Origin: Aliivibrio sifiae
Lineage (GTDB): Bacteria > Pseudomonadota > Gammaproteobacteria > Enterobacterales > Vibrionaceae
Length of the DNA: 64,000 bases
NCBI RefSeq assembly: GCF_002954715.1
Contig: NZ_MSCP01000002.1
Location: 127,010 to 191,009 of the forward strand
Direction of reading: 5' to 3'
The position numbers and the translations under genes were made by a program. Shown here piece after piece: positions 13,885 through 19,496 of the stretch; the first letter of the stretch is position 1, and each line of letters opens with the position of its first letter. Below the pieces are notes generated by a model, which saw only the letters and a list, made by a program, of their open reading frames with translations, ran no database searches and was not told the origin of the DNA.

Positions 13885-14118
13885 AAGTGGGTTTTATATT
13901 ATTTTACTGTAAATGTGCGTCATGTCGGATTTAGCTTATTGAAATGTAGTAAAAATAAAATATGTAATTTTATTTCATGTCTATTTTGAGGGTTGAGGCA
14001 TTTTAAAATGATTGACTCGTATTATTTGGAGAGGTTCGTCACAACTCTTGGTTCATTGCGGAGTGACCTCATATGTATTGATAATAGAACTATCAAATAC
14101 AAACCAAAAGGCACGCTC

Positions 14119-14562
14119 ATGTTATACGATTTAATTGACCATGATCTTATCGATGTTGTTAATCACAATAGTGATGCGTGGGAAGACGCAGTGAAAACGA
14201 CAACCAGTTACCTAGAGAAAAAAGGTTATGTAACTGCAAATTATGCCGAGGCGATAATTCAATCTACTTATGATAATGGACCTTATTATGTTCTTTGCCC
14301 AGGTATTGCTATGCCACATGCTCGCCCAGAAGCGGGAGTATTAAAAACAGGTTTAGGCATTCACATATTTCCAACCGCCATTGAATTTGGTTCTGACCTT
14401 GGTCCTGCAAATATCTTATTAACACTTGCTGCAACAGATCCAGATACGCATATTGAAGTCATTCAAGCGTTAAGTGAAATGTTAGTGGATGAAGAAAATA
14501 TCGCAAGATTAACCGCCGCCACTTCAAAAAATGAAGTGCTCGATATTATTAAAGCGTACTAA
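14119..14562 (+). CDS. cmtB: PTS mannitol/ascorbate-type EIIA component (CmtB-like)
   Basis: A 147-aa PTS EIIA of the mannitol-fructose/UlaC superfamily, carrying the phosphorylatable His67 in GIAMPHARPEAG. It passes phosphate from HPr to the IIB domain of the next gene. The start ATG 14119 is chosen because MLYDLI is the usual N terminus, an AAAAGG ribosome site lies 7 nt upstream, and the length then matches the family; in-frame upstream starts (TTG 13993, ATG 14008) would add 37-42 unlikely residues. It is the first gene of an operon resembling E. coli cmtB-cmtA-yggP-(yggF)-yggD-yggC. The true sugar is unknown; the homologous E. coli genes are described as a cryptic mannitol system. CRP-like sites upstream suggest catabolite control. 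Confidence 0.88.
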   Translation: MLYDLIDHDLIDVVNHNSDAWEDAVKTTTSYLEKKGYVTANYAEAIIQSTYDNGPYYVLCPGIAMPHARPEAGVLKTGLGIHIFPTAIEFGSDLGPANILLTLAATDPDTHIEVIQALSEMLVDEENIARLTAATSKNEVLDIIKAY

Positions 14563-14575
14563 GAAGGAACGTCAC

Positions 14576-15979
14576 GTGACAATAAATTTTAGAGCAAAAG
14601 TGCAAACCTTTGGTGGTCATTTGACCGCAATGGTGTTACCAAATATTGGAGCCTTTATTGCTTGGGGCTTTATTACCGCCTTATTTATTCCAACTGGTTG
14701 GATGCCAAATGAGCAGTTTGGTGAAATTGTTGGTCCTATGATTACCTATTTACTGCCATTACTTATCGGTTATACCGGAGGTCAGTTAGTTGGTGATAAA
14801 CGTGGAGCGGTAGCCGGTGCTATCGGTACGATGGGGGTTATTGTTGGGGCTGATATTCCGATGTTCGTTGGTGCAATGATCATGGGGCCACTAAGTGCTT
14901 GGGCGATTGTTCAGTTTGATAAAAGGGTTGAGCATAAAATCCCATCAGGTTTTGAAATGGTGGTTAATAACTTCTCATTAGGCATTATAGGCATGATTTG
15001 CTGTTTGGTTGCTTATGAAGTTGTTGGCCCTGCGGTAACTGCTGCGAATCTTTTTGTGAAATCAGGTATCGAAGCGCTTGTTGCTACAGGATTCTTGCCT
15101 TTATTAGCTGTAATTAATGAGCCTGCAAAAGTGCTCTTTTTAAATAACGCGATTGACCAAGGTATTTATTATCCTTTAGGTCTACAAGCTGCCGCTGAAA
15201 CCGGTAAATCTATCTTTTTTATGGTGGCATCTAACCCAGGGCCTGGTCTTGGTATGCTATTAGCGTACGCAAAATTTGGTCAAGGTTTAAGTAAGCGTTC
15301 AGCACCAAGTGCGATCATTATCCATTTCTTTGGTGGTATTCATGAATTGTATTTCCCATACGTATTAATGAAACCAATCATGATTTTGGCAATGATTGCC
15401 GGTGCAGCAACAGGTATTGCAACGTTTAACTTGCTAGGTGCTGGCTTAGTTGCGGGTCCTAGTCCAGGTTCGATTTTCTCTTACTTAGCGTTAACGCCAA
15501 AAGGTGGCTTTATCGCGATGATTGCAGGTGTTGCAAGTGCTGCGGTTGTCTCTTTCTTTGTAGCTAGTGCGATTCTTAAAATGAGTAAGAAAGAAGGTTC
15601 AGAAGATGAGTTTGAACAATCTATTACTAATATGAAAGAAATGAAAGCAGAAGGTAAAGCACAACCACAAGCAGTAACAGAAAAGGAGAATGATCGACCA
15701 ATCCAATTCGTCGCTTTTGCTTGTGATGCAGGAATGGGTTCAAGTGCTATGGGAGCATCGACTTTTAAGCGTAAATTGGTTCAAGCAGGGTATGACATTG
15801 AGGTTAAGAACTTCGCGATAGAAAAAGTGCCAAGCAATGCTGATGTGGTAATTACCCATGAAAGCTTAGAAGACAGAGCAATAAAAGCCACAGGCTTACC
15901 AGTAATTACAATTACTAATTTCTTAAATGACCCAGCGCTTAATGAACTGCTAAATAAGATTGAGCAGCAACAGGCCTAA
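14576..15979 (+). CDS. cmtA: PTS mannitol-type EIICB component (CmtA-like)
   Basis: A 467-aa sugar permease with a fused IIB domain. The IIC part (about 1-345) has eight or so membrane segments and the conserved GGIHELYFPYVLMKP motif. After a charged linker (about 345-376) the IIB domain holds the phospho-Cys383 in FACDAGMGSSAMGAS. It lacks the fused IIA domain of full-length MtlA, which is supplied by the preceding gene. The start is GTG 14576: AAGAAGGA lies 8 nt upstream, whereas the ATG at 14531 lies inside the EIIA gene without a ribosome site. It imports and phosphorylates a hexitol or related sugar; specificity is unproven. Confidence 0.9.
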   Translation: MTINFRAKVQTFGGHLTAMVLPNIGAFIAWGFITALFIPTGWMPNEQFGEIVGPMITYLLPLLIGYTGGQLVGDKRGAVAGAIGTMGVIVGADIPMFVGAMIMGPLSAWAIVQFDKRVEHKIPSGFEMVVNNFSLGIIGMICCLVAYEVVGPAVTAANLFVKSGIEALVATGFLPLLAVINEPAKVLFLNNAIDQGIYYPLGLQAAAETGKSIFFMVASNPGPGLGMLLAYAKFGQGLSKRSAPSAIIIHFFGGIHELYFPYVLMKPIMILAMIAGAATGIATFNLLGAGLVAGPSPGSIFSYLALTPKGGFIAMIAGVASAAVVSFFVASAILKMSKKEGSEDEFEQSITNMKEMKAEGKAQPQAVTEKENDRPIQFVAFACDAGMGSSAMGASTFKRKLVQAGYDIEVKNFAIEKVPSNADVVITHESLEDRAIKATGLPVITITNFLNDPALNELLNKIEQQQA

Positions 15980-16032
15980 CCTAAATTAATTTTTGAGAGG
16001 TGGACAGCACCTCTTTATTTGGAGATACGATC

Positions 16033-17304
16033 ATGGTTCAAACAACGGCTGCGGTTATTTGCGGTGAAAAAAATATCCAATTACGAACGTTCGATTTACC
16101 ACACATCTCAGCAGATGAATTATTAATTAAGAACATTTCAAACAGTATTTGTTTGTCGACTTACAAAGCCGCTTTGCTTGGCAGCAAGCATAAACGAGTT
16201 CCTGAAAATATAGCTGATGTTCCAGTGATTACAGGACATGAATATGCAGGCATTATTGTTGAGGTTGGTGAAAATTTAAAAGAACAATTTACTGCTGGGC
16301 AGCCTTTTGTTCTTCAACCCGCGATGGGATTACCGACAGGGTACTCCGCGGGTTATAGCTATGAAACATTTGGCGGTAATGCAACGTATTCGATTATACC
16401 TAAAATTGCGATTGAATTAGGCTGTGTGCTGCCGTACAAGGGATCATATTTTGCTGATGCCTCTTTAGCTGAACCAATGTCGTGCATTATTGGCGCTTTC
16501 CATGCAAGCTATCATACAACTCAGTATGTATATGAGCATGAAATGGGTATCAAAGAAGGTGGAACGCTTGCTCTATTAGCTTGTGCTGGTCCTATGGGCA
16601 TTGGTGCTATTGATTATGCAATTAATGGCCCAGTGAAACCAATACGAATTGTCGTTACTGATATTGATGAAGAGCGCCTGTCTCGTGCAGAAAGCTTAAT
16701 TCCAGTAAGTGCGGCAAAAGCTCAAGGAATTGAACTTATTTATGTTAATACTATTGAGATGGATGATCCTGTAACTTACTTAAAATCTCTGAACGATGAT
16801 CAAGGTTATGATGATGTCATGGTGTATGCAGCAGTAGCACAAGTACTTGAACAAGCTGATGATCTTCTGGGAAATGACGGTTGTTTAAATTTCTTTGCTG
16901 GTCCAACAGATAAAGCATTTAAAGTCCCATTTAACTTTTATAATGTGCATTATGAATCAACCCATATTGTAGGTACGTCAGGAGGTTCGACAGGAGATAT
17001 GTTGGAATCCCTTGAACTATCAGCTAACAATAATATCAATCCATCTTTTATGGTTACGCACGTTGGAGGACTACAAGCTGCGCCTCATACTATTTTGAAT
17101 CAATTGGATATTCCGGGTGGAAAGAAACTTATTTATCCTCATATAGATTTGCCGTTAACTGCAATCGATGACTTTAAGTCACTCTCGGACCAAGACTCAT
17201 TTTTTACTGAGTTAGACGCAATATTAGCGAAGAATAACTATGTCTGGAATGAGCACGCAGAAAAAGCATTATTAGAGTTTTATGACGTGAGTTTTACGGT
17301 TTAG
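16033..17304 (+). CDS. yggP: YggP/SorE-like zinc-type dehydrogenase (sugar-phosphate reductase)
   Basis: A 423-aa medium-chain dehydrogenase/reductase related to L-sorbose-1-phosphate reductase and E. coli YggP. It shows the zinc-site segment VITGHEYAGIIVEVGENL, a Cys in NSICLSTYK at the catalytic-zinc position, the AEPMSCIIGA segment and a GPMGIGA nucleotide-binding turn in the second half. The ATG at 16033 is preceded by GGAGA; a frame starting at 16000 would add 11 residues and is less likely. It probably oxidises or reduces the sugar phosphate made by the PTS. Gene order (cmtB-cmtA-yggP-like) matches the E. coli locus and supports the assignment. Confidence 0.85.
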   Translation: MVQTTAAVICGEKNIQLRTFDLPHISADELLIKNISNSICLSTYKAALLGSKHKRVPENIADVPVITGHEYAGIIVEVGENLKEQFTAGQPFVLQPAMGLPTGYSAGYSYETFGGNATYSIIPKIAIELGCVLPYKGSYFADASLAEPMSCIIGAFHASYHTTQYVYEHEMGIKEGGTLALLACAGPMGIGAIDYAINGPVKPIRIVVTDIDEERLSRAESLIPVSAAKAQGIELIYVNTIEMDDPVTYLKSLNDDQGYDDVMVYAAVAQVLEQADDLLGNDGCLNFFAGPTDKAFKVPFNFYNVHYESTHIVGTSGGSTGDMLESLELSANNNINPSFMVTHVGGLQAAPHTILNQLDIPGGKKLIYPHIDLPLTAIDDFKSLSDQDSFFTELDAILAKNNYVWNEHAEKALLEFYDVSFTV

Positions 17305-17372
17305 TTCTATGAAGTTTATGTGGTAGCCTTGAGCCCTGCTGAGGTCGCCACATATAATAGAGAGGTTTTACG

Positions 17373-17891
17373 TTGATACAAAAAATTGAATTGTTAGAAG
17401 GGCTAGAGGCGTGTGAAAACGCAACTGATTTTCTTCTGGTTTCTAACAAATTAATTAATCTCAAATTAAAAGCATTACTTCCAAACGTCTTTGTTCAAGA
17501 CAAATTGGTTATGGAATATGCTGTGGAGCCTCTTTTAAAAGAAGATGGTCCGCTTGTGACGACTGATGTTATGTCTAAACTGATTTTAGCTATGGGTAAG
17601 ATTTCATTGGGAACTTACGCAGATATTGGTCTATATCATCAAGTGCTAGAATATGCAGAAAGTCAGTCAGATAAGGTGTCGTTTGGTCATGATATGGTTT
17701 ATGACTTTATTACAAATCAAGCGATACTCTCAACACAGCAAGATAGTTTTTATATTGAATCAATCAATCAATTAAAGTTTTCTTCTTTTGAAATTTTCTC
17801 TCAAATGAGATACGAATCTCTGATCAAAACGGTACTTAAGCTGTCTTGTGAAATGTTGCTAGAAAAAATCGAAGAGGAAATAACGAAGTAA
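17373..17891 (+). CDS. yggD: MltR/YggD-family regulator
   Basis: A 172-aa protein of the mannitol operon repressor MltR / YggD family: EYAVEPLLKEDGPLVTTD, then LILAMGKISLGTYADIGLYHQV and a FITNQAILSTQQD segment. MltR-type proteins are helical, do not bind DNA in a well-defined way, and are thought to act as co-repressors. The start is TTG 17373, with AGAGG 7 nt upstream; no ATG is available at the proper N terminus. It lies inside the PTS operon, 68 bp after the dehydrogenase, as yggD does in E. coli, and probably tunes that operon. Confidence 0.85.
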   Translation: MIQKIELLEGLEACENATDFLLVSNKLINLKLKALLPNVFVQDKLVMEYAVEPLLKEDGPLVTTDVMSKLILAMGKISLGTYADIGLYHQVLEYAESQSDKVSFGHDMVYDFITNQAILSTQQDSFYIESINQLKFSSFEIFSQMRYESLIKTVLKLSCEMLLEKIEEEITK

Positions 17892-17900
17892 GGTTTCGTA

Positions 17901-18635
17901 ATGAAAGTGAACTTAAACGTGAGTGGTTTTGATACAGAAGCATTTTTTTCGAATAAAGACATAGCTAAAATTCATAAGCCCTTAGTTGAGAAATTTACTC
18001 GTTTATATCAAGAGCAAGAAGAGAGGGTGATAGTCTTCTTATGTGCGCCTCCCGGCAGTGGAAAGTCGACCTTAGCGGCATTTTGGGAATACTTATCTCA
18101 GCAGTCACCTCAATTAGAACCACTACAGGTCCTTCCTTTTGATGGATTTCATTACACTAATGAGATTTTAGAAAGTAATACCATTCAACGAAACAATGAA
18201 ACAATATCACTTAGAAATATTAAAGGGGCTTCTGAAACATTTAATTTGACGGATCTCATCGATAAATTAAAGCAGCTCCAAACACGTTCGCCAAAGTGGC
18301 CATATTATGATCGTAATCTACATGATCCCGTTGATGATGCAATTCAAGTGGATAAGAATATTGTTGTTGTCGAGGGGAATTGGCTATTACTAAATGAACC
18401 TGTGTGGTGTGATTTATATAAACTTGCTGACTTTACTGTTTTTATTGATACCGATGCTGATTTTCTAAAAGAACGCTTAGTAAATAGAAAGGTGAGAGGT
18501 GGTGCATCAGAACAAGAAGCGGTTACTTTTTATGAAAATTCGGATGCCATTAATGTCAATAAGGTCTTAACCCAATCTGTTCGGGCTGATCTGAATTTAT
18601 ACATGAATAAGAATGGTTCGTTTGAGATTCAATAG
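17901..18635 (+). CDS. yggC: YggC-like P-loop sugar kinase
   Basis: A 244-aa kinase of the uridine kinase/pantothenate kinase-like superfamily. The Walker A motif is CAPPGSGKSTLA (about 49-60), followed by LPFDGFHYTNEIL (substrate Asp and catalytic region) and a VVEGNWLLLNEPVW Walker B segment, with RKVRGG in the lid. Family members phosphorylate small hydroxylated compounds; fructose kinase FrcK is a related case. It starts 9 bp after yggD with GTAAGG upstream and is followed 9 bp later by the PHP gene, so the three are one unit. The substrate is probably a sugar derived from the imported one, an inference from context. Confidence 0.85.
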   Translation: MKVNLNVSGFDTEAFFSNKDIAKIHKPLVEKFTRLYQEQEERVIVFLCAPPGSGKSTLAAFWEYLSQQSPQLEPLQVLPFDGFHYTNEILESNTIQRNNETISLRNIKGASETFNLTDLIDKLKQLQTRSPKWPYYDRNLHDPVDDAIQVDKNIVVVEGNWLLLNEPVWCDLYKLADFTVFIDTDADFLKERLVNRKVRGGASEQEAVTFYENSDAINVNKVLTQSVRADLNLYMNKNGSFEIQ

Positions 18636-18644
18636 GAGATTGTC

Positions 18645-19391
18645 ATGAATATTGTTGTAGATACCCATACTCATACACTTGCCAGTGGTCATGCTTATAG
18701 TACGATTATTGAAAATGCACTTTCAGCACAGAATAAGGGGTTAAAACTTCTTTGTACAACAGATCATGCTCCTGAAATGCCAGGTGCCCCCCACTATTGG
18801 TATTTCAATAACCAAAGAATTTTACCCCGCTTTCTTCATAATGTAGGGATCCTACGTGGCGTAGAAGCGAATATATTAAATGTAAAAGGTGAGATTGATT
18901 TACCTGCATCTTCTGATCAACATTTAGATTGGGTCATCGCAAGTTTACATGAACCAGTATTTGCTCCAGCAAGTGAAGCGGAACATACAGCAGCTCTTAT
19001 TAATGTGATTAAGAGTGGGCGTATTGATGTATTGGGCCATTCTGGAAATCCAAACTATCCGTTTGATATAGAGAGAGTACTGCAATGCGCTAAAGAATAT
19101 AATGTTGCGGTAGAAGTTAATAATACATCGCTCACAGGAAAGAGCCGAAAAGGAAGTGATGTTCGCTGCGATAAAATAGTAGCAATAGGAAAAGAGGTAG
19201 GAGTGTACTTTACAACAGGATCTGATGCGCATTTTTGTGAAGAAATTGCACAGTTAGATTTGGCAGTTACATTACTAGCAAAGTATGGTGTTGAAGAGAA
19301 TAAAATACTTACAACGTCGACTTCTCGTTTTCTTAATTTTTTATTATTAAGAGGAAAATCTGCAATTCCAGAGTTTGAAGATCTTTATTAA
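18645..19391 (+). CDS. PHP-domain phosphoesterase (YcdX-like)
   Basis: A 248-aa PHP-superfamily metal-dependent phosphatase close to E. coli YcdX. Metal ligands are visible in order: [14 protein letters not shown] (7-20), [10 protein letters not shown] (about 39-48), GVEANI (Glu, about 75), [10 protein letters not shown] (His), DVLGHSGNP (His) and TGSDAHF (Asp and His near 193-198). Such enzymes hydrolyse phosphate monoesters with three metal ions. It is the last gene of the PTS operon, 9 bp after the kinase. The E. coli relative of this operon has the class II FBPase-like YggF instead, so this may be a non-homologous phosphatase filling the same step. A clear terminator follows. Confidence 0.88.
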
Positions 19392-19453: not shown

Positions 19454-19496
19454 CAAAAAAGCCGATACGCGTTATAATGTATCGGCTTTGTTTTTA
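19454..19496. terminator. Bidirectional terminator between PTS operon and MFS gene
   Basis: The stem AAAAGCCGATAC / GTATCGGCTTTG, with an A-run on the left and a T-run on the right, sits between convergent genes, so it can end both transcripts. Confidence 0.9.

Follow-up and report, generated by a model that had tools for sequence, protein, structure and literature searches.

The operon and its products

Positions 14119-19391 of the window (the whole 64,000-nucleotide stretch of Aliivibrio sifiae DNA that was analysed) hold six reading frames, all open and intact and oriented in the same direction. The intergenic gaps from the EIIA gene to the PHP gene are 13, 53, 68, 9 and 9 nt. The genes and the signals that accompany them are the following.

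14028..14043, + strand: CRP-like site GGAGAGGTTCGTCACA, 8/10 core bases, 91 nt upstream of the EIIA start
14119..14562, + strand: EIIA of the mannitol type, CmtB-like, 147 aa; ORF with PTS_EIIA_2 domain, 41% identity to E. coli CmtB
14576..15979, + strand: EIICB (CmtA), 467 aa, GTG start; PTS_EIIC and PTS_IIB domains, NNAIDQG motif
15995..16015, + strand: hairpin in the EIICB/yggP gap, 8-bp stem and 5-nt loop, without T tract
16033..17304, + strand: YggP, zinc-dependent MDR dehydrogenase of the SorE/YggP family, 423 aa; ADH_N and ADH_zinc_N domains
17317..17354, + strand: hairpin in the yggP/yggD gap, with compensatory changes across Vibrionaceae
17373..17891, + strand: YggD (MtlR family), 172 aa, TTG start; MtlR profile, yggD equivalog
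17901..18635, + strand: YggC, P-loop kinase with PRK/uridine kinase/pantothenate kinase fold, 244 aa
18645..19391, + strand: predicted PHP phosphatase of the YcdX family, 248 aa; PRK09248, nine metal ligands
19458..19489, + strand: intrinsic terminator, 12 bp stem and T tract

The Pfam matches are PTS_EIIA_2 (7.6e-30) for EIIA, PTS_EIIC and PTS_IIB for EIICB, ADH_N and ADH_zinc_N for YggP, MtlR (8e-46), PRK (4e-8) and PHP (8.5e-7) for the last three products. In NCBIfam the fourth gene scores 235 bits against the yggD equivalog (cut-off 167), the fifth 414 against a YggC-type kinase equivalog (cut-off 228) and the sixth 354 against PRK09248, the YcdX-type PHP family (cut-off 264); EIIA scores under the cut-off of the equivalog NF007358, PTS mannitol transporter subunit IIA (130.7 versus 192 bits). 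Identity to the E. coli proteins amounts to 41% for CmtB, 66% for CmtA, 66% for YggP, 33% for YggD and 44% for YggC. Comparison with the E. coli operon proteins gave no YggF match among those of the window operon, and the sole YggF relative in this genome is a GlpX-like gene on another contig.

A preliminary description of the window had proposed a six-gene operon (EIIA, EIICB, YggP, YggD, YggC, PHP) closed by a terminator, which is borne out by the reading frames, the Pfam and NCBIfam assignments and the terminal hairpin. The E. coli gene order cmtB-cmtA-yggP-yggF-yggD-yggC given there was likewise confirmed from the locus. Its statement that E. coli has no PHP gene is correct for the operon but not for the genome, where ycdX is found at another locus. 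The operon is a real, well-conserved variant of the known E. coli cmt/ygg operon.

Distribution of PHP and YggF

YggP was the marker of a survey in which the Vibrionaceae were represented by 247 species genomes, and it is present in 31 of them. At each of these 31 YggP loci the PHP gene is the sixth gene, directly 3' of yggC, and none of the 31 operons includes YggF. The PHP-bearing loci span the genera Aliivibrio, Vibrio and Photobacterium, and a separate scan of GTDB contigs revealed the same pattern in more named Vibrio, Photobacterium and Aliivibrio records. The gap between yggC and the PHP gene is 9-38 nt in the Vibrionaceae loci, one frameshifted record excepted, while conservation of the flanking TonB receptor and MFS genes does not extend beyond Aliivibrio. 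Because this close linkage is kept while the flanking genes differ, the PHP gene travels with the operon; that it is a chance neighbour is ruled out.

The Enterobacteriaceae sample consists of 26 operons that were fully read (order and family samples) and five from a genus search. YggF is found in 23 of the 31, neither enzyme in eight, and PHP was seen in none. The fully read operons comprise 22 with YggF between yggP and yggD and four with neither enzyme, none having PHP; among the five from the genus search, in which the region past yggC is partly covered, one has YggF and four do not. Tabulating the neighbourhoods and searching them for YggF and PHP side by side had been suggested in the preliminary description, which considered their co-occurrence to be the contrary finding. 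No operon with both genes was found among the 31 Vibrionaceae and 31 Enterobacteriaceae operons.

The phosphatase-free Enterobacteriaceae operons come from two genera, and neither enzyme is thus obligatory in cis. Inspection by eye of the gap and of the operon neighbours in L070 and L106-L108 recognised no third phosphatase type. In one of the two genera the yggP-yggD gap (L107:6114-6265, L108:7183-7335) is ~150 nt long, occupies the place that YggF has in others and has a strong predicted fold (-43 kcal/mol); it may be what a deletion left behind, or an RNA element with a regulatory role. A further Enterobacteriaceae operon (L073) gives a cmtA match of 66 residues only, possibly a broken gene, and its remaining genes are intact.

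The PHP protein and its origin

Along its full length the sixth protein aligns with E. coli YcdX (PDB access code 1m65; E 7e-64). YcdX is also the best structural match of its AlphaFold model (pLDDT 88), and superposition of the model on 1m65 gave 42% identity and a TM of 0.88. The metal ligands H8, H10, H16, H41, E74, H102, H132, D194 and H196 were mapped through the YcdX alignment from the ligand positions of the YcdX trinuclear site. They are invariant throughout a set of 66 sequences, and the retention of all nine rules out a pseudo-enzyme. Between operon PHP proteins and housekeeping YcdX the same set features conservative changes only, with no fixed active-site difference. PHP belongs to a Pfam family separate from the class II FBPases (YggF/GlpX) and has no homology or YggF match to them.

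In a tree of these 66 PHP proteins the operon copies group together, nested within Vibrionaceae YcdX (the wider clade has support 100/99, the branch with all operon copies 99/97), a position that rules out horizontal gain from outside the family. Standalone PHP genes L112-L116, L029 and L030 are placed immediately outside the operon clade and, from this position, look like the source lineage of the operon gene; L023, L024, L028 and L117, also standalone, branch inside it. Operon-type PHP is found alone, in unrelated neighbourhoods and as the sole YcdX of the genome, in the Vibrionaceae L112-L118, L029 and L030.

In Vibrio aquaticus (L024:7700-8000, L111:6106-6400) the last 72 yggC codons remain ahead of an intact PHP gene and the other operon genes are absent, a remnant showing that the operon decayed while PHP was kept. 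The three operon-loss genomes that keep PHP have no further YcdX above the search threshold, whereas 28 of the 31 operon genomes do (p 0.003 in Fisher's test, relatedness ignored). Judged by sequence and model, the operon PHP very probably has YcdX chemistry and would be able to stand in for YcdX.

Intergenic hairpins and regulation

Two conserved intercistronic hairpins are absent from the preliminary description. Each of the larger gaps has one, located 3' of the upstream stop codon and 5' of the next ribosome-binding site. For the yggP-yggD hairpin, 96.7% of cells are paired in 19 sequences and five pairs are changed on both sides; its covariation score was reached by 0 of 500 shuffles, and sliding the partner lowered pairing to 21-61%. 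The EIICB-yggP gap forms a GC-rich stem whose sequence varies and whose pairing is retained in 22 of 23 Vibrionaceae gaps. The lack of a T tract behind either stem shows that these hairpins are not terminators; their likely roles would be to stabilise the upstream message or to set the dose of YggP and YggD. An Rfam search of the window gave no matches. The E. coli locus has no equivalent hairpins, its cmtA-yggP gap being 14 nt long and its yggP and yggF genes overlapping.

Of 81 upstream regions, 47 have a CRP-like site with at least 8/10 core bases between -120 and -81, more than in any other bin. In Vibrionaceae relatives the site tends to lie at -89 to -97; the window site is weak (8/10). 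CRP activates E. coli cmtB (PMC3105977, PMC12412646), and CRP control of the window operon from the predicted site is plausible.

The assignment of the fourth product to MltR/YggD holds for the family, as the protein is an MtlR-family member and a yggD equivalog, but a regulator role is doubtful: E. coli YggD displayed no DNA binding by ChIP-exo and was reported as fumarase E (PMC8464067). MtlR, a relative of YggD, works through HPr (PMC6763467). RefSeq labels E. coli YggD (L038:9644-10153) as fumarase E despite its MtlR-family membership, and the operon setting makes this label worth checking. In the Vibrio splendidus group (L015, L016, L025, L054, L055, L059-L061, L063) YggD is only 63-64% identical to the window copy, whereas most of the other Vibrionaceae operons reach 71-84%; the remaining proteins of the group keep their usual identity. 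This suggests, from the identities, a replaced or fast-evolving yggD.

A possible pathway

The reading preferred here, whose prospects are about even, starts from a five-gene core (EIIA, EIICB, YggP, YggD and YggC) that each family extended with its own phosphatase. A hexitol-like substrate would enter as its phosphate through a PTS of the mannitol family with altered specificity and would then be oxidised. The ancestor of the Vibrionaceae operon would have been extended at the 3' end by a copy of the host's YcdX-type trinuclear-metal phosphatase gene, and the Enterobacteriaceae would separately have gained the GlpX-type YggF between yggP and yggD. Both added enzymes would most likely strip phosphate from a sugar phosphate of the pathway. 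Gene content, order and linkage, the intact metal site and the origin of PHP are observed features of the operon; from them we infer every reaction, the substrate and the action of PHP and YggF on one compound.

The PTS would deliver hexitol-1-P, which the SorE-like YggP would oxidise at the carbon adjoining the phosphorylated one to yield ketose-1-P. YggC would then transfer a phosphate from ATP to the opposite end, giving ketose-1,6-bisphosphate, from which YggF, PHP or GlpX in trans would take off the 1-phosphate to leave ketose-6-P for central metabolism. Such a bisphosphate scheme uses both a kinase and a phosphatase, which would account for their sharing an operon, and since it needs just a bisphosphatase, PHP, YggF or trans-acting GlpX would be interchangeable.

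SorE interconverts L-sorbose-1-P and glucitol-6-P and acts beside the phosphorylated carbon. YggP relatives with ~40-43% identity are located in L-sorbose operons with a mannose-family PTS, where they are named SorE. YggC has a sugar/nucleoside kinase fold, and its closest solved relative carries a fructose transport system kinase annotation; the confidence of its model is modest (pLDDT 72) and the overall fold alone was used. Hydrolysis of fructose-1,6-bisphosphate by YggF is reported in Brown et al. 2009, as cited in PMC8719807.

The EIIC loop reads NNAIDQG in all CmtA-type proteins found and NNAINHG in three MtlA paralogues. NNAINHG is the substrate-loop motif of MtlA. Because NNAIDQG replaces it in CmtA-type EIIC, the operon substrate is probably not plain mannitol but another hexitol. 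The literature searched contained nothing on this operon in Vibrio, nor on the substrates of CmtA, YggP or YggC.

PHP and the step of YggF

On the YggP tree the states PHP, YggF and neither require only three changes, and the split between PHP and YggF coincides exactly with that between Vibrionaceae and Enterobacteriaceae, with about one gain of each gene. The pattern therefore contains almost no independent events. The positions also differ, yggF lying between yggP and yggD and PHP last, after yggC, which rules out an in-situ swap of one gene for the other. A GlpX-type gene, 53-58% identical to YggF, is present outside the operon in 34/34 operon genomes tested. A second YcdX exists in 28/31 Vibrionaceae operon genomes, and YcdX is encoded at another locus in 10/10 Enterobacteriaceae operon genomes tested. 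As GlpX and YcdX are mostly present in trans, both activities are generally available and it is the co-transcribed one that differs.

The preliminary description took PHP for a non-homologous phosphatase of the YggF step. What stands of this is that PHP is a fixed operon member (31/31) with an intact metal site and never accompanies YggF, while the claim that the step is the same is weakened by a split that follows the family, the differing positions, the eight operons with neither enzyme, GlpX in trans and the absence of PHP specialisation. Replacement in the strictest form, with PHP and YggF as non-homologous isofunctional enzymes of a single dedicated step, is rather unlikely: the operon core is common to both families, both enzymes are of metal-dependent phosphatase families and they never share an operon, but the pattern is confounded with lineage, the two genes differ in position, eight operons do without either enzyme, GlpX and YcdX are supplied in trans and the PHP active site is unspecialised. 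Comparative evidence of this kind cannot separate replacement from plain co-option of YcdX. Replacement is a good hypothesis, which the co-occurrence check does not contradict. It is doubtful, though a degree less so, that PHP is a general house-cleaning phosphatase in the role of YcdX, co-regulated here by chance and guarding against the build-up of phosphorylated sugars or other esters rather than catalysing a catabolic step. Its match to YcdX at conserved sites, its retention as sole YcdX after operon loss in three genomes and the link of E. coli YcdX to swarming (PMC4464133) agree with that role, but the operon linkage is constant even though almost every operon genome retains another ycdX elsewhere, and this suggests a separate role for PHP.

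That the PHP substrate is not a sugar phosphate but, for instance, a nucleotide that YggC produces or consumes is very improbable. The YggC fold resembles uridine and pantothenate kinases, and uridine was the strong inducer of E. coli cmtA in a screen of 198 compounds, but it induced many transporters and its effect was possibly unspecific (PMC12412646); moreover, the nearest solved YggC relative has the fructose transport system kinase annotation, and the PTS and dehydrogenase indicate a polyol.

Returning to the five-gene core with an added phosphatase in each family, its most specific version is an unlikely one: the two families would have separately added unrelated phosphatases to one polyol operon for one bisphosphate-to-monophosphate step, the Vibrionaceae enzyme deriving from their own ycdX. 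If true, the step would belong to an undescribed pathway from hexitol-1-P through ketose-1-P and ketose-1,6-bisphosphate to ketose-6-P. That a GlpX-type enzyme, a PHP-type enzyme or supply in trans is tolerated narrows the missing chemistry of the E. coli cmt/ygg operon. YcdX, a widespread enzyme, gains a metabolic context, and the operon substrate and the role of YcdX become testable in one system.

Comparison with known systems

YggP is ~40-43% identical to SorE of L-sorbose utilisation, but the sor-type operons seen have a mannose-family PTS and carry no YggC, YggD or PHP genes, unlike the window operon. The mannitol operon (mtlA-mtlD-mtlR) is related through EIICB, 55% identical to the MtlA-type protein of the same genome, and through YggD, which is of the MtlR family. 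It differs in that the window operon has no MtlD and carries NNAIDQG in place of NNAINHG; the mtl locus of the genome is on another contig.

The PHP protein shares ~42% identity, the fold and nine metal ligands with the Zn phosphatase YcdX of E. coli (PDB access codes 1m65 and 1pb0). The window gene is part of a PTS operon, whereas E. coli ycdX is located elsewhere and its product is matured by YcdY (PMC4464133). The closest system is the E. coli cmt/ygg locus, with five orthologues (CmtB, CmtA, YggP, YggD and YggC) in the same relative order, and with reported CRP control that is matched by the CRP-like upstream site in Vibrionaceae. In the E. coli locus, unlike the window operon, yggF separates yggP from yggD, a PHP gene is absent and there is no space for the hairpins.
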